From Gammaproteobacteria bacterium (GTDB lineage Bacteria; Pseudomonadota; Gammaproteobacteria; Pseudomonadales; Azotimanducaceae): a stretch of 52,408 bases of DNA. Under the pieces are notes generated by a model. It was not told the DNA's origin. It ran no database searches and was given only the letters and a program-made list of their open reading frames with translations. The position numbers and the translations under genes are program-made. The stretch spans positions 1 through 52,408 of the forward strand of contig VXUA01000061.1 of the NCBI GenBank assembly GCA_009837185.1, in the 5' to 3' direction. Position 1 is the stretch's first letter. Each line of letters starts with the position of its first letter. Of the stretch, positions 10,877-27,546 are shown in pieces.

Positions 10877-10932
10877 TATCTTTTCGAGTATCGACCCGTA
10901 GTGCTGTGACTGTCTCTGTGTTGGCCGGTCGC

Positions 10933-12987
10933 ATGCGTATGCAAGCGACTCTCATTGCTTGTTCTTTTCTTATTCTCTACACCGCGGTGGAAGGAAATGA
11001 ATCCTCCGATGCAGTCGAATTGAAAGAAGAAGTCGTTGTCAAAGGTGATCCTCGAGATATACCGACTCGGTCTAGCCTTGGTACTCTGACGACTGTCGAT
11101 AGTCAAGATCTTGAGCTTACGCGACCTCTTCATCCACACGAAATTTTCGTGCGGATTCCCGGAGTTTGGGTTGTTAAGAATTCAGGTCAGGAACACCTTA
11201 CAGGACTTCGTTCAGCAGTCCTCGCTGGTTCCGGTGCGTGTGGATCCTACCTTTTACTAGAAGATAACATTCCGGTGCGTCCTATTGGCTTTTGCAATGT
11301 CAATGGTTTGTTTGAACTGAACATCGAACAAGCTGATCGTGTTGCCGTCCTACGTGGTCCCGCGAGCGCTATTTACGGTGGGAATGCGATGCGTGGCGTG
11401 ATTAACGTGCGCCCTTTCGTTGGGGGTGAGAAGACTAATTCGATGAGTCTGGAAGCAGGATCGCATGACTATAGTCAAGTTCGCATGACTTGGTACAACG
11501 GAAAGGTGCAAGCGAAATTTCATTCCACAGACACGAACGGATTTCGAAATGACACAGGGTACTCGCAACAAAAATTCAATGTTGGATGGACTTCGAAGAT
11601 CGGAAGTTGGGATGCGACCCAAACGCTATCAATTACATCGCTAAGACAAGAAACTGGCGGGTATGTACTGGGCTACCAGTCATACAACGATCACGACTTC
11701 CGAAGGACAAATCCTAATCCAGAAGCTTATCGCGACGCAGACTCCTTCCGTTTGTCCAGCCAAATTGACATCGGTACAAATCTCTACATATACCCTTACG
11801 CACGTGCCTCGCGAATGGACTTCCTGCAGCACTTTCTACCGGGACAACCGCGTGAGGAAAACAAACAAGTGAGTGCAGGCGCAATATTGTTTGGGATGAC
11901 GCAACTCAATGCTCTGAGCATTAAGTTAGGTGCACAATTGGAATGGTTCAAAGCTTCGCTGGTACAACATCAACAACGTCCAACCGTAGGATCACCATTC
12001 TTACAGGCGACTCGACCAACCGGCACTCACTATGACTTCGTGGTCACTGGGGGAACCTATGCGATTTTTCAGAGTGCCACCAGAACCTGGGGCAACCGGC
12101 ATGAAGTAGAAGAGAGCCTCCGCGTAGAGCACTCGCAATATCAGTATGACAATCTTCATTTGGACGGGAACACCCGCGACGATGGTTCAATGTGTGGCTT
12201 CGGGGGCTGCCTTTACACCCGGCCAAGCGACCGATCTGACAGTTTTACAAGTATTGCAGCTAGGCTCGGCTACAAATTCCTGAGCACGGATAGTTCGCAA
12301 TTTTGGGTACTCTCGTCGATTGGCTATCGACCACCTCAAATAACTGAGCTATATCGACTTCAAAGTGGCCAGACCGTGGCTGATCTGAAGAGTGAAAGTT
12401 CGCGATCTGTTGAGTTAGGCTGGAATTCTTCGTGGCGCGCCCTCGACGTTGTTGTCTCAATCTACTTTGATTCGAGCTCCAATCTCATCTTCAGAGACGC
12501 CAATGGTATGAATGTAAGTGATGGCGCGACCGCCTCAAGTGGGCTCGAGATCGAAATTCAGTGGCAAGTCAATGACTCTCATCAGATTACCGTCGCAGGT
12601 ACCTTCGCGAACCATGAGTACGACTTTACTCGGAATCTTGCACGAGGTGAAGTAATTTTCACCGGAAATCAAATGGATACCGCGCCCCACGTCCTCGCGC
12701 ACGCTCGTTGGACTGCAAAAATCGGCTCTGCTGGCAAGGGCGAAGTAGAAATCAATCGCATCGGCTCACACTACCTAAATGCTGCGAATACCGCGCGGTA
12801 TGGCGGGCACAACGTAGTGAATTTTCGGATGGATTTTCAACTCAGTGGGCAATGGTCGCTCTTTGGTAGAATACTCAACATCTTCGACACCTACTATGCT
12901 GATCGCGCAGATTTCGCGTTTGTTAGATACCGCTATTTCCCGGCGGATTTACGACAATTTTTCGTAGGAATTAAACGTCGTTTTTGA
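10933..12987 (+). CDS. TonB-dependent outer-membrane receptor
   Basis: About 684 residues. A signal peptide (MRMQATLIACSFLILYTAVEG) is followed by a TonB-box-like EEVVVKG, a plug domain (PHEIFVRIPGVWVV, then RVAVLRGPASAIYGGNAMRG) and a 22-strand type barrel ending in an aromatic residue (FVGIKRRF). The plug carries two cysteines (GACGS and GFCN) and an extracellular loop carries another pair (MCGFGGC), which could form disulfides. I chose the ATG at 10933 over an upstream GTG because it starts the signal peptide cleanly. The ligand is not evident: the plug resembles siderophore and cobalamin receptors in general. It is followed by the large permease/peptidase-like gene. No TonB-ExbB-ExbD set is nearby. 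Confidence 0.9.
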   Translation: MRMQATLIACSFLILYTAVEGNESSDAVELKEEVVVKGDPRDIPTRSSLGTLTTVDSQDLELTRPLHPHEIFVRIPGVWVVKNSGQEHLTGLRSAVLAGSGACGSYLLLEDNIPVRPIGFCNVNGLFELNIEQADRVAVLRGPASAIYGGNAMRGVINVRPFVGGEKTNSMSLEAGSHDYSQVRMTWYNGKVQAKFHSTDTNGFRNDTGYSQQKFNVGWTSKIGSWDATQTLSITSLRQETGGYVLGYQSYNDHDFRRTNPNPEAYRDADSFRLSSQIDIGTNLYIYPYARASRMDFLQHFLPGQPREENKQVSAGAILFGMTQLNALSIKLGAQLEWFKASLVQHQQRPTVGSPFLQATRPTGTHYDFVVTGGTYAIFQSATRTWGNRHEVEESLRVEHSQYQYDNLHLDGNTRDDGSMCGFGGCLYTRPSDRSDSFTSIAARLGYKFLSTDSSQFWVLSSIGYRPPQITELYRLQSGQTVADLKSESSRSVELGWNSSWRALDVVVSIYFDSSSNLIFRDANGMNVSDGATASSGLEIEIQWQVNDSHQITVAGTFANHEYDFTRNLARGEVIFTGNQMDTAPHVLAHARWTAKIGSAGKGEVEINRIGSHYLNAANTARYGGHNVVNFRMDFQLSGQWSLFGRILNIFDTYYADRADFAFVRYRYFPADLRQFFVGIKRRF

Positions 12988-13069
12988 TATCGTGAGTACG
13001 TGTCTCAAAAGCCTCCAACTTAAGCTCTAACCTTATATTCTCTCTTTTTGAAATCTTCGACTCAGGATC

Positions 13070-16000
13070 GTGTTTAACTCGATAACTCGAACTCTAGCGG
13101 TCGCAGGCGCGCAAATTAGAATTTGCCGATCCCAAGTACGGTTCTGGGTTACTAGCGCGTTGCTTACTCTGGTCGTGTTGATCGGCTACCTGCAGTCCTG
13201 CGTGTGGCAAACTCTAAACGCTTCCTATTCTCCATCCTTCAGTCTGGCTGAACCCAAGTATTTATTGGGCAATGTCGATGCGCTAGTGTTCCTCGCATTT
13301 CAGTTTGCTGCCGTGTTGCTGACGTTCGACCTAAGGCAATTCCACAATAGAAATCGCATCCAATCGGTCTTGGAGAGTCGTCAACTTACGAACATCGAGT
13401 ATCTTTTTGGAAGTGTCTTGGGCGTAACTTTTCTGCTGTACTTGGTAGTTCTTGGCAACATTGCGCTGATCCAGGGACTCGGTGCTCTAAGTCACTACCT
13501 TGGCTCTGCGTGGGGTGATTTCCTTGAGCCTGTATCGGTATTCAATCTTCTCGTTCTAGATACGTTTCCGACGCTATTCTTGTGGAGCAGTGTCGCACTC
13601 ACTCTTACCTGCACTCTACGATCTGGATTTGTTGCGGTGGCAATCGCTTCGAGCCTGTTAGTGGCGTTTTACATCGGTAGTTTGTTAGTTCCTTTCTCAT
13701 GGCTTGATATAGTTACGCCTTCCTCGAATTTCACTGCGTACATTTCTGATCTTGTCCCAGACTTTGCTGCCCGCGAAGTCATCGGATTACGTGCACTGAC
13801 GGTTATCGGTGCGTTTGGGCTCATTACTGTTGCAGCTGTTGTACTAGATCGACGCGACGCCCGCATGGGGATCGTGAACTTACCACTTGGTGCAGTCATG
13901 ATCGTGCTTAGTGTCGTCGGTTTTGGTGTTCTCTCTCATCAACTGATAACAGCTTACTACCAGCCACAAGAATGGTCAAGAATTCATGCTGAGTACGACA
14001 AAAACGTCGAACTTGACATTGATAAGATTGAAGGTTCAGTCACAATCAATCCGGGTCGCCTGTTGTCGATCAACCTTGGGTACGAGTTTCGAGTAAAACA
14101 TGAACACAACATACCGCAACTGACCTTCACACTTAACCCGGGCTTTGCCATTGATCGAATTACCTTAAACGGAAAAGAGGTTGATCACAGCTTTTCCAAT
14201 GGACTACTGATCGTACCCACGGGAGTACCTTTAGAACGAGATGATCTGCACGAACTGACTATTGAAGCCCACGGTCTCCCAAATCCGTTGTTCGCTTACT
14301 TAGACAGTCCAGTTCATTACTTCATTGACCGCAACGTACCACGCCGCGCCGGGCAATTATTCGGTAAGGACGGTTCGATCTTCTCGAAATCATACGTCGC
14401 ACTTATGCCAGGGATGTATTGGTACCCGGTTCCTAACTCGCAAAATCTTGCGAGATCCGCGTCCATTGGGATAGACTTTTTCGAGACCAACATCAAACTT
14501 TCGGTAACTGCTTCAAATTGGTTATTGGTTGGTACAGACATTACACAGAGTGATGATGAGATAGGGACGTTTGCATTGCGACCGGAGACTCCCTTATCGG
14601 AAATCGCAGTGTTTGGGACGAACTTTGTGAAACACTCTTTGACCATTGCAAACATTCAATTCAACCTTTACCTTCATGAAGACCATCAGAAGAATTTCGG
14701 TAAGTTCAATTTTGACGACGAGCGAGTACGCGAAGAGATAGAAGAGATCTTCACTCCGTTTGAGGAAGCAGGACTAGGATACCCTTTCAACGAATTGTCG
14801 TTTGTAGAAATCCCGAACAGACTTAGAACTCTAAGTGGCGGCTTTAAAACCGAAAGTGTGCAGGTGCTACCCGGCATGTTCCTCATGAAAGAGCGCGGTT
14901 TCCCGACAGCCCATTTCGATACGCGCATTAAGCGGATCGAACGCTGGGTGGACGATAAGGAATGGGTGGAAAACAGTAAATATTGGGCTCTCGCAGATTA
15001 CTTTGGAGATGCTGTAGGGACCGATAATTTGTGGGCTAGCTTCTCGAAGATTTTCTGGACTCATGCCACCACCGCTCACGGGGACGACGCTATCGTGCTG
15101 AACGACCTCGTTCAAAATGTAATTTCTCGCGTTTCCCCTGCTCCAGATTTGTGGTTTTCACCCTACGCCACTTACCAAATATCCGATTTCACACAAATGT
15201 TTCTCCCGGCCGTCGAATGGGCGATTGATGATGGCGGTGGTGGCGACATGATCGGCTGGGTACGCAACTTAGCGCAACGATATTTGAATCGCCACTCCGT
15301 ATGGGAAGCGATGGAGACTAAGTCATTACTCGACCTCCCCACGACCGACTCGCACCAGAGCGATCTCGAGTTCATGCTTGCAAAAAATCGCATGATCGCA
15401 CGCGTGTTTGTTCAGACCAACGATAACGACACGATCTTAGCATGGCTTGGAAACTTGAGGAGTGCTTATCAAGGACGGTCCTTCACGATGCAAGAGTTGG
15501 TAAGTCAGGCGGAAGCTGCTGAATTGGATTTATATCCCTATTTTGGAGAGTGGCTCAGTAGCAGTAATTTACCGGGATATTTGGTGTCCGATATTACCCG
15601 TCGAGAACTTGCTGAAGACGAGGAAGGAAAGCCGCAGTATGAGTCGTCCTTCTATGTGTTCAACCCTAGTGAAACTACCGGCGTGTTTTGGGCGGCATAT
15701 CCACCTGATTCAAGGCGAGAGTGGCCAAGAACGCCGACTATAGTGATCGACGGTAAGTCCTCTGTACGAATGAATGTGGTGACTACCCACGAAATTGACT
15801 ACATTCACCTTTATCCCAATCTATCATTAAATCGGAACGAGTTTGGAATCCGTCTTGATGAGTCCGTGGTACTGGATAGCAACGGCGAGTCTCGCGATCC
15901 ACGACCAATGTTTGAAGTGGTAGACTGGAGACCGCCAAATCCCGGCATCATCGTAGATGATTTAGATCCTGGTTTTGCAATTGAACAACCACCTGCTTTC

Positions 16001-16534
16001 AACAGTGCTTCGTCGATTGGTCCAATGGGTTGGTTTCGCATTCCACGACTTCAAGCGGATAACGACAATGGCTTACCGGCGCGCGCCAATTACGCCTATC
16101 GAACGAGTCGCGGTGTGTGGGGACGTATCTCCGACGAAGATTCCTACGGGCAATTTCGCCGTACGGCCACTGTGACCCGATTTGCTCCCGAAATCCACCC
16201 CGTCGCGTTTTCCGCGGAGTTACCAGATACAACTCGGTGGAAGCTGGAATACTTTGTGAATACGGGCTGGTTTCGTCGCAGTAGTGGACAAGGAGACCTC
16301 CACTTAGAAATCGAGCACTCAGAAGCAACAGAAACACGCGATTTGAGCTTCGAAAACTCGATCTATGGGTGGAATGAAGTAGGTGAATTCGAACTATTAA
16401 AAGGAGAAGTGAACGTCCGGGTGATTAGCGCTTCCGAGGACACTCCCTGGCTCTACGCAGATGCGATTCGATGGGTTCCGGTCCGTGCAAACCGTAATAA
16501 CATTTATGGAGATGGTGGAGGCGGCGGGAGTTGA
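13070..16534 (+). CDS. ABC-2 permease fused to a degenerate M1-peptidase-like periplasmic region
   Basis: A 1154-residue membrane protein. Residues 1 to about 295 hold some seven hydrophobic helices in an ABC-2 permease-like arrangement. The next 700 or so residues resemble the M1 aminopeptidase part of known ABC-2/M1 fusion proteins: a beta-rich domain (about 310 to 500), then a helical domain. No HEXXH zinc motif exists in this region, and the expected site seems replaced by KYWALADYFGDAV. So it is probably not an active zinc peptidase. The last 130 residues, ending WLYADAIRWVPV, look like a golvesin/xanthan-lyase-type beta-sandwich. The start is GTG at 13070 with AGGA just upstream. No ATPase subunit is adjacent. 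Its last 22 bases overlap the 3' end of the tmRNA gene on the other strand, and the resulting C-terminus is YGDGGGGGS. Confidence 0.72.
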   Translation: MFNSITRTLAVAGAQIRICRSQVRFWVTSALLTLVVLIGYLQSCVWQTLNASYSPSFSLAEPKYLLGNVDALVFLAFQFAAVLLTFDLRQFHNRNRIQSVLESRQLTNIEYLFGSVLGVTFLLYLVVLGNIALIQGLGALSHYLGSAWGDFLEPVSVFNLLVLDTFPTLFLWSSVALTLTCTLRSGFVAVAIASSLLVAFYIGSLLVPFSWLDIVTPSSNFTAYISDLVPDFAAREVIGLRALTVIGAFGLITVAAVVLDRRDARMGIVNLPLGAVMIVLSVVGFGVLSHQLITAYYQPQEWSRIHAEYDKNVELDIDKIEGSVTINPGRLLSINLGYEFRVKHEHNIPQLTFTLNPGFAIDRITLNGKEVDHSFSNGLLIVPTGVPLERDDLHELTIEAHGLPNPLFAYLDSPVHYFIDRNVPRRAGQLFGKDGSIFSKSYVALMPGMYWYPVPNSQNLARSASIGIDFFETNIKLSVTASNWLLVGTDITQSDDEIGTFALRPETPLSEIAVFGTNFVKHSLTIANIQFNLYLHEDHQKNFGKFNFDDERVREEIEEIFTPFEEAGLGYPFNELSFVEIPNRLRTLSGGFKTESVQVLPGMFLMKERGFPTAHFDTRIKRIERWVDDKEWVENSKYWALADYFGDAVGTDNLWASFSKIFWTHATTAHGDDAIVLNDLVQNVISRVSPAPDLWFSPYATYQISDFTQMFLPAVEWAIDDGGGGDMIGWVRNLAQRYLNRHSVWEAMETKSLLDLPTTDSHQSDLEFMLAKNRMIARVFVQTNDNDTILAWLGNLRSAYQGRSFTMQELVSQAEAAELDLYPYFGEWLSSSNLPGYLVSDITRRELAEDEEGKPQYESSFYVFNPSETTGVFWAAYPPDSRREWPRTPTIVIDGKSSVRMNVVTTHEIDYIHLYPNLSLNRNEFGIRLDESVVLDSNGESRDPRPMFEVVDWRPPNPGIIVDDLDPGFAIEQPPAFNSASSIGPMGWFRIPRLQADNDNGLPARANYAYRTSRGVWGRISDEDSYGQFRRTATVTRFAPEIHPVAFSAELPDTTRWKLEYFVNTGWFRRSSGQGDLHLEIEHSEATETRDLSFENSIYGWNEVGEFELLKGEVNVRVISASEDTPWLYADAIRWVPVRANRNNIYGDGGGGGS

Positions 16535-21406: not shown

Positions 21407-22660
21407 TCACTGCGTGTAAACTGGATGCTTTTGACACATCTCACGTACTTTTATCCGAACGGACGCAACCATATTGTCGTTGGAAATGTCATCGAGAATA
21501 TCGCACATCCATTGAGTTAGCGTAGAACACTCCTCTGTCCCAAAACCGCGACGGGTCGCCGCTGCAGAGCCAATGCGTAAACCGCTGGTCACGAATGGTG
21601 AACGCGGATCGCCCGGTACGGTGTTCTTATTGACCGTGATGTTCGCTCGATTCAAGGCTGCGTCTGCAGCTTTTCCGGTGATGTCCTTGTCGATCAGATC
21701 CAACAAGAACAGATGGTTATCAGTGCCACCCGACACTACCTTGTAGCCGCGCTCGACAAATCCGCGAGCCATCGTCCTAGCGTTTTCCACAACCTGTATT
21801 TGATAGTCTCGAAATTCCGGGGCTGCGGCTTCTTTAAAACACACTGCTTTTGCGGCGATGATGTGCATCAAGGGGCCACCTTGAGTGCCTGGAAACAGAG
21901 CAGAATTGAGTCGTTTTTCGATGTTTGGATTTGCTCGAGCCAAGATCAATCCACCGCGTGGTCCAGCCAGTGTTTTGTGCGTCGTGGTCGTTACAACATC
22001 CGCATGTGGAATTGGATTGGGATAGACACCGGCGGCCACTAAACCGGCAACGTGAGCCATATCCACCAATAGATAAGCACCTACAGAATCTGCTATCTCT
22101 CGAAATTTCGCCCAGTCGAGTTTGCGACTGTAAGCGGAAAAGCCAGCTACAATGAGTTTAGGTTGGTGTTCATGCGCGATAGCTGAAATATCGTCGTAGT
22201 CCACTAAACCGTCTGTAGGACGTACCCCGTATTGGACCGCTCGATAGATTCGCCCCGAAAAGTTTACTGGTGAGCCATGAGTTAAATGGCCACCCTCTGA
22301 CAGGCTCATTCCCAACACCACATCATTTGGTTCCATCAAGGCCAAGTAAGCTGATGCATTGGCCTGACTACCCGAATGCGGCTGGACATTCACGTAGTCG
22401 GCACCAAAGAGCTTTTTCGCTCGATCAATCGCTAATACCTCGACCTGGTCTACGTAGTCACAACCGCCGTAATATCGCTTACTGGGATAGCCTTCCGCAT
22501 ATTTATTTGTCATTCCACAACCTTGTGCCTCTAACACCGCCGGAGACACGTAGTTCTCTGAGGCAATCAGTTCGATGTGTTCTTCTTGACGACGATCTTC
22601 AGCAATAATAGACTTCCATACTTCGGGATCAAGATCGCTCAGTTTTTGTTGATTGAACAT
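21407..22660 (-). CDS. glyA: Serine hydroxymethyltransferase GlyA
   Basis: A 417-residue PLP enzyme that interconverts serine and glycine with tetrahydrofolate and is the main source of one-carbon units. The PLP lysine motif [16 protein letters not shown], the [18 protein letters not shown] substrate loop, the [16 protein letters not shown] motif, and the C-terminal [17 protein letters not shown] segment are all in place. Length equals E. coli GlyA (417). It heads the leftward cluster glyA-ribD-nusB-thiL-pgpA-xseB-ispA and is divergent from the first poly-TonB gene across 177 bp, which must hold both promoters. I see no PurR or riboswitch signature there. Confidence 0.96.
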
Positions 22661-22837: not shown

Positions 22838-24373
22838 ATGCGAGCGTTTAAGACAAAGCACAATCAACGACGCACCTTAATTGGCGCGATCTGTACCGCA
22901 ATGATTGGGACATTTCTCACACACGCAATTTTCGTCTCAGCAGTCGAGGATGATCGGCTAAGAGAAGTGGCTACTCCGAACGCGACTTATCCTAAAGGAG
23001 TCTGGCACAGCGGTCATGATGGCCGAGTCACAGTTACGTTTGACGTAAACAAACGTGGCAAAGTGCAAAACGTTTGTATCACCCATTCCACCTACCCCGG
23101 TATATTCGACCTCTACGCACTTAAAGCGGTGAAAGACTACCAATATGAAAACTTGAGCCGTCCTCGTGAACTCGTAGAGGGACTCAGTACGACAGTTAAT
23201 TTCACTCTAGACTCAAATCCTCGAGACTATGTTTCTCCTAAGTATCCGCACTCTGCTTTAGAATTCGGTTTCCAAGGATACGTCGTCGTTAGGTTTGCTG
23301 TTAAACGTAATGGTGCAGTGCGCAACCTGTCGACGGCAGCCGCAGTACCCTCTGAAGTGTTTGAAGACGCTGCTCTGGGGGCGGCAGGACAGTTCAACTT
23401 TGACTCGAATCGATTTTTAAAACGCGAGACAATACATCACAAGTTTGTTTTTTCATTGGACAGTGAACCAAACAATCTAGTAATCCCCGAATATCCAGAT
23501 CAAGCTAAAGAAGACGGCATACAGGGACATGCAATCGTGAATTTTGACATCACTTCTGAAGGTACTGTTGACAGAGAGTTTGTGGTGTACTCCAGTAACA
23601 GCTTATTTGATCAACCTGCTCTGGATGCAGTGTCTCAATTTACTTTTGATCCCAATAAACCTGCTAAGAACATCCATCACAAAGTAGAGTTCGTCCTCAA
23701 TAGGAACCATCGCGCATTAACCAAAGCGGTACCGAAATACCCACGAGAGGCAGTTCTTAATAGAACTGAAGGACATGTAATCGTAAAGTTCGATATCGAC
23801 GAAAGAGGATCCGTCGATAATCTGTCCGTGCTCGAAGCAGAGCCGCCTGATGTCTTCAATGAAGCCGCCCTAGCGGCTACGGCGCAGTTTACTTACTTGC
23901 CGAAGTATGTTGACGGAAAACCCGTTCGTGTTCAGGGGGAGCGCAACAGGCTTCGATTTACACTCGGATCACAAAACCAAGCCGCTCGACAACAAGCTGA
24001 GGAAGTTCAACAGCAACGTCAAGCACGGCGGCCGCAGAGTCGAAGAGGACGGTCTGCTGCGCGGCGATCAGCGGGTGAAGACAGGCGACCCGAGCACATG
24101 CGCAGTATCAAACTCGATCCAATCTACCAATTACAGTTGATTGGGGATCACGATGATGGCAGCGTCATTGTTCAATTCGATGTGAACGGCAGCGGCTACG
24201 TTGAAGGACCAAAAATACTGGAGGTCATCGACACAAGCTTACCGGATGAAATCACGGAACGCATTCTTGACGAGGTTAGCTTCTTTTGGTACGCGCCGTG
24301 GATTGAGAACAATCAACCAAAAACCGTATACGGGGTTAAGCACCGGATTGAACTGACTTTCGTTGACGACTAG
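22838..24373 (+). CDS. Exported protein with five TonB C-terminal-like repeats, copy A
   Basis: A 511-residue protein. Residues 1 to about 36 form a signal peptide or membrane anchor. Five successive domains follow the TonB C-terminal pattern (YP..A...G..G.VVV.F.I...G.V, then FD..AL.AV..F.F.P, then a closing strand F.L). Approximate limits are 46-126, 127-209, 210-288, 289-377 and, after a Gln/Arg-rich linker (378-422), a divergent fifth domain 423-511. Domain 4, with KYVDGKPVRV, is closest to classical TonB. There is no proline-rich TonB spacer and no ExbB or ExbD gene. The start is supported by GGAGGG just upstream. A close paralogue lies 278 bp downstream. Role unknown: periplasmic binding or scaffolding is an inference. 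Confidence 0.75.
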   Translation: MRAFKTKHNQRRTLIGAICTAMIGTFLTHAIFVSAVEDDRLREVATPNATYPKGVWHSGHDGRVTVTFDVNKRGKVQNVCITHSTYPGIFDLYALKAVKDYQYENLSRPRELVEGLSTTVNFTLDSNPRDYVSPKYPHSALEFGFQGYVVVRFAVKRNGAVRNLSTAAAVPSEVFEDAALGAAGQFNFDSNRFLKRETIHHKFVFSLDSEPNNLVIPEYPDQAKEDGIQGHAIVNFDITSEGTVDREFVVYSSNSLFDQPALDAVSQFTFDPNKPAKNIHHKVEFVLNRNHRALTKAVPKYPREAVLNRTEGHVIVKFDIDERGSVDNLSVLEAEPPDVFNEAALAATAQFTYLPKYVDGKPVRVQGERNRLRFTLGSQNQAARQQAEEVQQQRQARRPQSRRGRSAARRSAGEDRRPEHMRSIKLDPIYQLQLIGDHDDGSVIVQFDVNGSGYVEGPKILEVIDTSLPDEITERILDEVSFFWYAPWIENNQPKTVYGVKHRIELTFVDD

Positions 24374-24651
24374 AGCCGAGCGAGCATTTGTCGTCGGGAG
24401 TTCACTCAGCGTCGTCACAAAGGAATTTCAGGCCGAGAATCTGTAGCAAATTCTTACAAGATTCAAGTACTAGCGGAGTACTGGATCTGAAACGCTAACC
24501 ACAGACTGATGCCTTCACCCCTAGTATAATTCCTACTTTAAACTCACTTCTTATCACTCTAGGGCGTCCTACGGTCGCGTCAAGGAATAAGAGACGGTTT
24601 ATAATTTTTTGAAGTTGCTCATCCGGAGGAGACATCAGAACTGGTAAGTCA

Positions 24652-26112
24652 ATGAAGATCCAGCGATATACCGCGTTAGTTGTTCTGACCATCGTATTGA
24701 CTAGTAGTGTTATTACGCGTATGGGAACGATAGCCCTTGCTCAAGAAGCAGACAATGTCCCACTAGAAATCGATGCCCCTATTCCAGTTTATCCTAACGA
24801 GGCTTGGGAAAAGAGTCCGGAAGGCATGGTCACCGTGAAGTTCGACATTACCGATAAGGGCTATGTCGAAAACGCCTATATATACAACGCTTCATTACCG
24901 GGAAAATTCGAACTCTATGCACTCCAAGCAATTAAAGACCATCGTTTCGAACCACCAGACGGATCTCCTCAGCATACTAAGGGCGTCTCAAAAAACTTTT
25001 TCTTTACACTCGATTCCAGTCCAAAAAATCCCGTAAGGGTGAAGTATCCAAAGTCCGCGATGGAACAAGGACCTGAAGGTTATGTCGTGGTGCGGTTTGG
25101 AGTATCGGCGTGGGGTGATGTCCGAGATCAAGAAGTCGTTGGCGCTGAACCGGCTGGTCTCTTTGAAGCTGCAGCCCTTGATGCGGCAAGCAAGATGAAA
25201 TTTGCAAGGCACTTCAAACCTGACCAAAAAATAATGCACAAGTTTACGTTTTCTTTGAACAGTGAACCCAGCAAGGCAGTCGTAGCTGAATTTCCCGCTG
25301 CCGCCAAAGACCAACAACTACAAGGGCATGTCGTCGTCGAATTTGACATCAACGAAGATGGTGAAGTAGAAAATCCCGAAGCGATTTATTCCGATGCTAG
25401 CGTATTCGAGAAAACCGCAATTGCTGCCGTGTCAGAATTTCGTTTTGAGCCGAACTCCCCGAACGAAGGAGTACTGCACAAAGTTGAATTCAATCTCAAC
25501 CAAGACTACCAACCTCTATCCAAAGTTGAACCCGAGTATCCCAAGGAAGCATTGTTGAATAGCATCGAGGGGTACGTAGTCGTTCGATTTGACATTGACG
25601 AAACAGGATCAGTAGCCAATCCAAAGGTGTCAACAGCGAAACCACCGAATTTATTCGACGAATCAGCGTTAACTGCTGTGGCGCAATTCAAGTACTTGCC
25701 AAAGTATGTAGATGGTTATCCTACACCCGTCAAAAATAGATATGTCAGGATCATGTACGAGATGGCTGAAGAAGACAACAAGAGCTCCGGTCGCACACTC
25801 GATGAACAGCCATCAAGTGCCCAAGCAAGGTATCCAATGCATCGACACTCACTAAAACCGACTCACAGGTTGTATATAGCAGGCAACCAAGAGGACGGCA
25901 GCGTTATCGTCGAGTTTGATGTGAACGACCGTGGCTTTGTCGAACAACCCAACATTTTTGAGGTTCAAGGTACGCGGCTGACCGAGAAAATCACTCAGCG
26001 AATTCTCGACGAGGTAGGGTTCTACCGATATACATCCTTTACGATCAATGATATTCCAGTAGGCGTTTACGGTGTCCGGCACCGTATCGAACTACGTTTC
26101 CTAGAGAACTAG
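24652..26112 (+). CDS. Exported protein with five TonB C-terminal-like repeats, copy B
   Basis: A 486-residue paralogue of copy A with the same five-domain plan: signal peptide or anchor (1 to 30, ending IALAQEA), TonB-like repeats at about 42-121, 122-202, 203-282 and 283-371, a short linker, and a divergent fifth repeat at 400-486. Shared landmarks with copy A include GYVVVRF in repeat 2, ALLNSIEGYVVVRFDIDETG versus the matching repeat 4 of copy A, and the closing RIL-DEV-F motif followed by VYGV+HRIEL. The linker differs most, lacking the Gln/Arg tract. The ATG at 24652 has a GGAGGAG motif about 20 bases upstream, rather far. The 278-bp gap before it holds no gene I can support. Confidence 0.75.
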   Translation: MKIQRYTALVVLTIVLTSSVITRMGTIALAQEADNVPLEIDAPIPVYPNEAWEKSPEGMVTVKFDITDKGYVENAYIYNASLPGKFELYALQAIKDHRFEPPDGSPQHTKGVSKNFFFTLDSSPKNPVRVKYPKSAMEQGPEGYVVVRFGVSAWGDVRDQEVVGAEPAGLFEAAALDAASKMKFARHFKPDQKIMHKFTFSLNSEPSKAVVAEFPAAAKDQQLQGHVVVEFDINEDGEVENPEAIYSDASVFEKTAIAAVSEFRFEPNSPNEGVLHKVEFNLNQDYQPLSKVEPEYPKEALLNSIEGYVVVRFDIDETGSVANPKVSTAKPPNLFDESALTAVAQFKYLPKYVDGYPTPVKNRYVRIMYEMAEEDNKSSGRTLDEQPSSAQARYPMHRHSLKPTHRLYIAGNQEDGSVIVEFDVNDRGFVEQPNIFEVQGTRLTEKITQRILDEVGFYRYTSFTINDIPVGVYGVRHRIELRFLEN

Positions 26113-26163: not shown

Positions 26164-27546
26164 TTAACCCATCAAAATGTCGTTTAGAACATCCAGTGCG
26201 CTGCTGAGCGTAGGGACGTAAGACACTTCGACTCCTGCGAAAGGTTTCTTCGCTTTGTTCGCTAGTGGGACTATCGCGCGCGTAAAACCGTGTTTTTGTA
26301 CCTCGCGCAGACGTTCTTGCCCGTTGGGTACTGGACGTATTTCACCAGTGAGTCCTAATTCACCAAACACAACCAGATCGTGAGGTAGCGCGCGATTTCT
26401 GAAACTGGAATAAACTGCGATCAAAGTCGCTAAGTCTACCGCGGTCTCCGCCACCTTGATACCGCCAGTGACGTTGGCGAACACGTCTTGATCTGCTAAC
26501 GAGATTCCACAGTGCCGGTGCATGATCGCTAAGTGCATCGCCAATCGTTGAGTGTCTAGACCTACCGAAACTCGACGAGGATACCCCCCTTGTACGTCGT
26601 CTACTAGTGCCTGAATTTCAACCAGAAGCGGGCGCGTGCCCTCCCAAGTAACAGTTACCACGCTACCGGCCGTTGGTTCTGTAGTACGTTCTAAGAAAAT
26701 CGCCGAGGGATTCGCGACCTCTCGCAACCCACGGTCTGTCATGGCAAACACACCAAGCTCGTTCACAGCACCAAACCGGTTCTTAATACCGCGCAGCGTA
26801 CGAAAACGACTACCAATCGGAGCTTCCAACATCACAAAACAATCAATCATGTGCTCCAGAACTTTAGGACCAGCGAGATTTCCTTCCTTGGTCACATGTC
26901 CGACAAGTACGAAGATCGTGCCGGTCTGTTTTGCTAATTGTGTCAGCTGGGACGCACATTCTCGGACCTGGCTGACACTCCCAGGGACACTTTCAATCTC
27001 ATCCGAATACATCACTTGGATAGAGTCAATAACGACGACCGCAGGTTTAGTGCGTTCCACTAGGGCAATCACTTGTCCGACATCCGTAAGTGTAGCTAGT
27101 TGAACTTCACGGTCCGAAATCCCGAGACGTATAGCACGACTCGCGATCTGCTGAATAGACTCTTCTCCACTAACGTAGACGCACCCCAAGTCGCGAGCTA
27201 TCTCGCTTGCCATCTGTATCAGCAACGTCGACTTCCCAGCACCGGGCTCGCCACCTATAAGTACCACTGATCCCGGTACTAAACCGCCACCTAAAACACG
27301 GTCGAGTTCCTGAATCCGGGTGAGAATTCTTGGGCTCGATTCAAGCTTGACTTCAGCTAGTCGAGTGATCTCAGTTGTACTGCCGGAAAAACCAGCTCCT
27401 GACGTTCCGCCTGACTTCTTTTGTTTTTGCGAAACCCTGACTTCTTCCAAGCAATTCCACTCTCCACACGTAGCACACTGTCCCTGCCATTTAGGATAAG
27501 AAGCACCACATTCACGACAGGCAAAAAGGACTTTTGTCTTTACCAT
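26164..27546 (-). CDS. radA: DNA repair protein RadA
   Basis: A 460-residue RecA-related ATPase that acts as a branch-migration helicase in homologous recombination. The N-terminal C4 zinc finger uses C10, C13, C24 and C27 (ACRECG and CATCGEW). The Walker A motif is GGEPGAGKST, the RadA-specific KNRFG motif is present (GIKNRFGAVNELG), and a C-terminal Lon-protease-like domain begins near TVTWEGTRPLLVEIQALVDD. Length is standard (E. coli 460). It is convergent with poly-TonB copy B, 51 bp away, and stands downstream of the autotransporter gene on the same strand. Confidence 0.95.
   Translation of the reverse strand: MVKTKVLFACRECGASYPKWQGQCATCGEWNCLEEVRVSQKQKKSGGTSGAGFSGSTTEITRLAEVKLESSPRILTRIQELDRVLGGGLVPGSVVLIGGEPGAGKSTLLIQMASEIARDLGCVYVSGEESIQQIASRAIRLGISDREVQLATLTDVGQVIALVERTKPAVVVIDSIQVMYSDEIESVPGSVSQVRECASQLTQLAKQTGTIFVLVGHVTKEGNLAGPKVLEHMIDCFVMLEAPIGSRFRTLRGIKNRFGAVNELGVFAMTDRGLREVANPSAIFLERTTEPTAGSVVTVTWEGTRPLLVEIQALVDDVQGGYPRRVSVGLDTQRLAMHLAIMHRHCGISLADQDVFANVTGGIKVAETAVDLATLIAVYSSFRNRALPHDLVVFGELGLTGEIRPVPNGQERLREVQKHGFTRAIVPLANKAKKPFAGVEVSYVPTLSSALDVLNDILMG

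Follow-up and report, generated by a model that had tools for sequence, protein, structure and literature searches.

TonB powers nutrient uptake across the outer membrane; its C-terminal domain is usually present once per protein, and TonB has been studied as a one-domain, motor-driven coupler. As set out in the available parts of two reports, the TonB box pairs, in both the Escherichia coli and the Pseudomonas aeruginosa proteins, with the last strand of this domain, where a phenylalanine (Phe230/Phe336) sits beside Val10 of the box; the strand starts with a basic residue, which is suggested to face an acidic residue of the box (PMC6118199, PMC11658791). The D-box of TonB, flanked by prolines, binds ExbD, according to the accessible portion of a further paper (PMC10907165). 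A 2025 study of TonB/TolA evolution presents a three-part architecture and, in the part available, describes no chains (PMC12204202). No paper on multiple, tandem or repeated TonB C-terminal domains was among the titles listed for the open-licence literature, in agreement with a preliminary description of the locus analysed here, which knew of no well-described system of this kind.

The window, i.e. the whole stretch of 52,408 nucleotides that was analysed, is contig C29 of a gammaproteobacterial genome of 2.77 Mb in 86 contigs. Two plus-strand genes, A and B, sit in it between the minus-strand genes glyA and radA, the latter named from its domains (table 1). Their architecture is unusual, selected and recurrent in one genus, in which the receptor-binding domain is found in chains of three to five units and, in one clade, outside the motor operons and under selection.

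Table 1. Features of the A/B locus, with positions in the window.
Feature	Position	Strand	Remarks
glyA	21407..22660	-	left neighbour in 6/6 carriers
Gene A	22838..24373	+	511 aa, five TonB_C units
A residues 1-35, Sec-type signal (or anchor)	22838..22942	+	hydropathy and N-termini, by eye
A unit 1	22961..23215	+	PF03544, 37.9 bits
A unit 2	23222..23464	+	PF03544, 39.4 bits
A unit 3	23471..23701	+	PF03544, 55.4 bits
A unit 4	23711..23971	+	PF03544, 68.2 bits; most TonB-like
A linker, Gln/Arg-rich	23972..24100	+	length and sequence variable
A unit 5, diverged	24101..24370	+	found by units 1-4 model
Candidate -10 box TATAAT upstream of B	24600..24605	+	putative; kept in 7/7 aligned intergenic stretches
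Gene B	24652..26112	+	486 aa, five TonB_C units
B residues 1-30, signal (or anchor)	24652..24741	+	ALA before residue 31; by eye
B unit 1	24763..25017	+	PF03544, 41.9 bits
B unit 2	25024..25263	+	PF03544, 45.9 bits
B unit 3	25270..25500	+	PF03544, 53.4 bits
B unit 4	25510..25770	+	PF03544, 68.4 bits
B unit 5, diverged	25846..26109	+	found by units 1-4 model
radA (presumed)	26164..27546	-	right neighbour in 6/6 carriers

Four stretches of A and four of B (37.9 to 68.4 bits) exceed the curated cut-off of PF03544, 24.6 bits. With borders cut by hand, joints of 2-3 residues separate neighbours among units 1-4, and unit 5 is preceded by a linker of 43 residues in A, where it is basic and glutamine-rich, and of 25 residues in B. 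Unit 4 of A matches TonB2 (2k9k, E 6e-10) and E. coli TonB (2gsk, E 2.2e-9); at E up to 0.001, unit 4 matches 14 PDB sequences and the profile of the whole protein 16, two of these 16 at unit 2, and every one of them is TonB. As a separate observation, DUF1573 (PF07610) matches residues 49-84 of A just above its cut-off (26.5 vs 26.1 bits), overlapping unit 1; it is matched by 4 of 5 other chain proteins scanned, in 2 of them above the cut-off.

The last unit of the chain is the most diverged one. Alone, unit 5 of A reaches 17 bits to PF03544, i.e. below the cut-off, this being its sole Pfam match; at E up to 1, the same family is matched by unit 5 of all 12 copies (best E 7.8e-5), and six other Pfam families match just 1 or 2 copies each. 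A model built on units 1-4 alone detects unit 5 at 23.5 bits in A and 20.8 bits in B, and at 28.9 and 25.5 bits, respectively, when given the isolated segment, vs at most 3.8 bits in 2000 shuffles. When each of positions 1-4 is left out in turn, it is recovered by the model of the others at 40 to 68 bits. The profile of unit 5 has TonB as its top PDB match, which is not significant (E 0.027). Unit 5 is diverged but real, and A and B both appear to end in a TonB-type C-terminal domain. The five units per protein of the preliminary description are thus confirmed, the four or five profile matches that it expected being four above the cut-off, with the fifth unit recognized by the model of units 1-4. 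A chance repeat was also considered, and was rejected on the scores of the shuffled sequences.

The likeness to the TonB transducer lies in units 1-4, each a TonB_C domain above the cut-off, in the match of unit 4 to solved TonBs, and in the docking-strand phenylalanine (placed by eye) kept in units 1-3; the differences are five units instead of one, and the absence of a proline-rich spacer and of an ExbB match on the contig. The signal or anchor first proposed for the N-terminus corresponds to a hydrophobic stretch in the hydropathy profiles of A and B, with none further along, and its peak value (1.81-2.51 across 12 copies) would permit an anchor. Hence, one alternative is an unusual but energised TonB, in which the N-terminal segment stays in the membrane and ExbB-ExbD are supplied from elsewhere. 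The SHLS spacing pattern is found in none of the 12 chain copies, but it is also missing from 12 of 12 single-domain TonBs of the exbB-exbD clusters (a set outside which the own-genome proteins on contigs C27 and C81 fall), so that its absence from the chains says little. Nevertheless, an energised role is improbable: V/I-S-A, by eye a cleavage-type site, precedes residue 36 in 5/5 A copies, a histidine near residue 29 is present in just 5 of the 12 copies, the genome has 7 ExbB-family matches, all on contigs other than C29, and, with 4 and 9 prolines in residues 36-110 of the pair vs 10-20 in 12 single-domain TonBs of the genus, a proline-rich periplasm-spanning spacer is absent from both proteins. 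Both absences had been claimed from the letters alone. The best reading is that A and B descend from a TonB-like protein and are no longer part of the motor.

How the docking strand has been kept differs from unit to unit. The position taken by eye as the docking phenylalanine is Phe in 12/12 rows of each of units 1-3 and Leu in 12/12 of unit 5, whereas unit 4 has Phe in five rows and Tyr in seven; the strand opens with His-Lys in 11/12 rows of unit 2 and 12/12 of unit 3. In these last two units the strand is the most conserved 8-residue stretch (none of 74 and none of 70 stretches, respectively, is better); it is middling in units 1 (20 of 78 better) and 5 (23 of 83), and ranks near the bottom in unit 4 (72 of 80). 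To judge from these alignments, units 2 and 3 seem to serve in binding or as joints, and unit 4 looks as if the overall appearance of TonB had been kept while the docking strand was relaxed.

The reading that we tentatively prefer, although we place it short of an even chance, is that A and B are non-energised, multivalent periplasmic binders of TonB boxes, i.e. of beta-strands, at the receptors. The signal would be cleaved and the proteins exported to the periplasm, where the last strand of a unit would still pair with an incoming beta-strand, as that of TonB does with the TonB box of a receptor, and the presence of several units per chain would make the binding multivalent. By strand recruitment and multivalency together, A and B would hold, cluster or buffer the TonB boxes of outer-membrane transporters without energy, working as adaptor or governor alongside the genuine TonBs, with units 2 and 3 as the main docking sites. 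In favour of this reading, the genome has, at other loci, TonBs next to ExbB and to an ExbD recognized by eye. The binding of several receptors, a ruler or scaffold and a decoy were the roles suggested in the preliminary description. Several findings weigh against the multivalent binder. Plug-domain matches number 20 in the window's genome, 17-20 in the six genomes that carry the pair and 9-35 in the 12 non-carriers of the genus, so that there is no excess of receptors in carriers; the genes adjacent to the pair are glyA and radA, with no receptor or motor gene immediately beside it, and the receptor gene of the window lies some 10 kb off; neither upstream stretch has a conspicuous Fur-like site, the best matching 11 of 19 bases of the consensus, and at least 11 bases being matched at 93 positions of the window; furthermore, conservation of the docking strand is low in unit 4 and intermediate in units 1 and 5.

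Alternatively, the strand of units 2 and 3 may owe its conservation to packing on the next unit. A and B might then serve as an envelope scaffold or ruler, the units packing as a rigid rod which ties together the outer membrane, peptidoglycan or other proteins, with TonB boxes unused. The short, hand-cut joints between units 1-4, the fact that last-strand conservation falls at the joints of units 2-3 and 3-4, and the basic, glutamine-rich linker of A would all suit such a rod. So would the binding of peptidoglycan that has been proposed, in the available part of one report, for a dimer of the TonB C-terminal domain (PMC9022066). We regard the scaffold as unlikely, since the features of the strand fit a docking surface for the TonB box, and a Pfam search of A and B at E up to 0.1 gave no peptidoglycan-binding family.

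A and B are 43% identical overall, and units at the same position in the two proteins are 38-51% identical vs 15-36% for different positions within one protein. In a tree of units (104 rows, 88 columns), positions 1, 2, 4 and 5 correspond to four separate groups of 13 units (SH-aLRT 98, 95, 93 and 98, respectively), and the 13 units of position 3 group with one unit of a 567-residue protein of genome G008 (SH-aLRT 90). As 48 of 101 inner branches are open and some units of the G008 protein are long branches, only the position groups were used, and groups within single proteins are taken with caution. The position groups span A, B and a third paralogue, C, so that one five-unit ancestor was later duplicated; the shared plan and the odd fifth domain reported at the outset for the two paralogues are borne out by the same clustering. 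A recent and separate expansion inside each protein was rejected, in that units pair by position across the paralogues.

Selection on the chains is purifying, as the preliminary description had presumed in calling the architecture selected: dN/dS is 0.12-0.28 in eight orthologue comparisons, the value of 0.12 having a saturated dS. The constraint on unit 5 is about that on the other units, and linker and signal are mostly unconstrained. At the same time, A is 62-83% identical to its counterparts in four relatives vs 93-97% for GlyA and 92-97% for RadA in five relatives, so that A evolves faster than its neighbours. This rate, together with the broken copy in genome G013 described below, would be in line with a gene family without any Ton-related task, e.g. 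a secreted or surface protein reusing the fold. The dN/dS values, the 112 columns that by our own count are invariant among 12 copies, and the fact that every one of the six carriers retains two or more intact copies all go against such a family, which we hold to be very improbable.

Full-length relatives, for which 58 genomes including the window's own were searched, are found in the latter and in G002, G005, G008, G011 and G013, the five relative loci coming from metagenome-assembled gammaproteobacteria (Pseudomonadales, 1; OMG group, 1; Gammaproteobacteria, 3). These make six carriers of the pair between glyA and radA among the 18 genomes of the genus, and gene order around the pair is identical in 5/5 relatives over the fetched stretch. 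In the 12 non-carriers, ten loci were fetched (G016 was left unfetched, and G012 has no glyA match), and glyA and radA abut in nine of them, with 64-158 bp between the aligned ends; in the tenth, G010, radA is absent from the fetched stretch. Thus, the pair was either gained in one clade or lost outside it. Relatives were found in no viral contigs, and matches in 31 plasmid records all fall short of 80% coverage of A (37% in the best of the 15 listed), so a mobile or phage origin is unsupported. As for glyA itself, two matches are found in the six carriers and in G010, one in ten other genomes of the genus and none in G012; those of the window's genome are at 14273-15511 of contig C81 and at the gene of table 1.

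The types of copy vary among carriers: A and B in the window, A and C in G008 and G002, C and B in G011, and A, a broken C and B in G013, where the third five-unit copy (L041:7886-9470) is split into three frames between the intact A and B. G005 has A plus a second gene. This gene resembles C more in columns 1-120 and, with less clarity, in columns 181-240, and B more from column 241 on, with neither favoured in columns 121-180; in the unit tree, its first two units fall with those of the broken C copy of G013. The pattern suggests a small family in which A, B and C genes are born, lost and recombined. Such turnover would fit changing selection and, with it, a dominant-negative decoy, in which soluble TonB domains, when made, occupy the receptors and shut off uptake, including the entry of phages and bacteriocins. 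The decoy shares the docking-surface evidence with the multivalent binder that we prefer, and periplasmic TonB fragments do inhibit transport in E. coli; yet the fixed syntenic place and the purifying selection within the clade suggest a steady role, and we consider it distinctly unlikely.

The start of B deserves a remark. Its relatives start at an ATG right after a GGAGG-type site, where the window (24634-24654) has ATC, and the first in-frame ATG of B is 18 nt downstream of the relatives' start; the start of B may, therefore, be unusual or late. The putative -10 box upstream of B was not among the hits listed by the promoter scan.

Chains of at least three units are present in 9 of the 18 genomes of the genus, namely the six carriers and three sister species, G003 (three units), G007 (four, plus a second protein with two) and G014 (four). 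The sister-species chains share with A and B an N-terminal hydrophobic segment (by eye), repeated TonB_C units and the genus. They differ in having longer spacers between units and in being located beside exbB, exbD and tonB, the adjoining genes being relatives of the ExbB, ExbD and single-domain TonBs of the window's genome; TPR-like genes (by eye) are found beyond the Ton genes in all three clusters. The position of these chains inside Ton operons ties the trait to the Ton system. Their units group within the protein (SH-aLRT 94 in G003, 95 in G014 and 88 in G007, there for three of four units), and they probably arose separately from the A/B family. The same cluster in the window's genome, on contig C3, encodes two ordinary TonBs and a TPR-TonB_C protein and no chain; these ordinary TonB domains differ from A and B in being single, with a proline-rich spacer or TPR (by eye), and without repeats. 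Among the chains found, only the A/B family and the 567-residue protein of G008 are outside a Ton cluster; the latter has four Pfam stretches and no Ton motor gene seen beside it, and looks like a distant cousin of the A/B family.

The survey of proteins with three or more units, and of their neighbours, suggested in the preliminary description modifies its picture of an isolated trait: no chains of at least three units outside the genus were among the matches listed in the sampled draws of Pseudomonadota, but three more species of the genus have chains in Ton operons. One may go further and propose a class of soluble multivalent chains, poly-TonBs, which would gather or gate many TonB-dependent receptors without energy and have evolved repeatedly in one genus. 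Although we find this generalization rather doubtful, the chains offer natural material on non-energised TonB domains in receptor clustering, traffic control and resistance to phages or bacteriocins.

Outside the genus, a two-unit model was run on overlapping draws of 369 genomes of the class, 200 of the family, 398 of the phylum and 390 of the order; with strict thresholds, counts made among the matches listed and Bacteroidota outside the sample, weak tandems may be missed. Matches over all or most of both units come from G424, G942, G1279 and, in one other genus of the family, G495, G511 and G549; a partial-span match is seen, e.g., in G143. The proteins of G424, G942, G495, G511 and G549 have two units each, and the match of G1279 is a frame of 275 residues that looks similar to them. 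Thus, the two-unit proteins (those of G424 and G942, one of 230 residues in G495, and HExxH proteins, M56-like by eye, in G495, G511 and G549) resemble A and B in carrying more than one TonB_C unit per chain, and differ in having only two, several with other parts attached. At L178:7723-10190, one such HExxH membrane protein, which has two TonB_C units, adjoins a two-unit protein and a single-domain TonB. A three-unit TonB_C protein with near-identical repeats, beside Ton genes, was also seen at L046:3938-4960, and is apparently the product of a recent tandem duplication.

Elsewhere in the window, a TonB-dependent receptor of 693 residues is followed by a protein of 1154 residues (10906-16534), which has only a weak match to Golvesin_C, below the cut-off. 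On the minus strand, an autotransporter-like gene (PF03797; 27715-30440) is split across two overlapping frames of the window; it is a single frame of 908 residues in the relative locus L040, so that intact copies exist.
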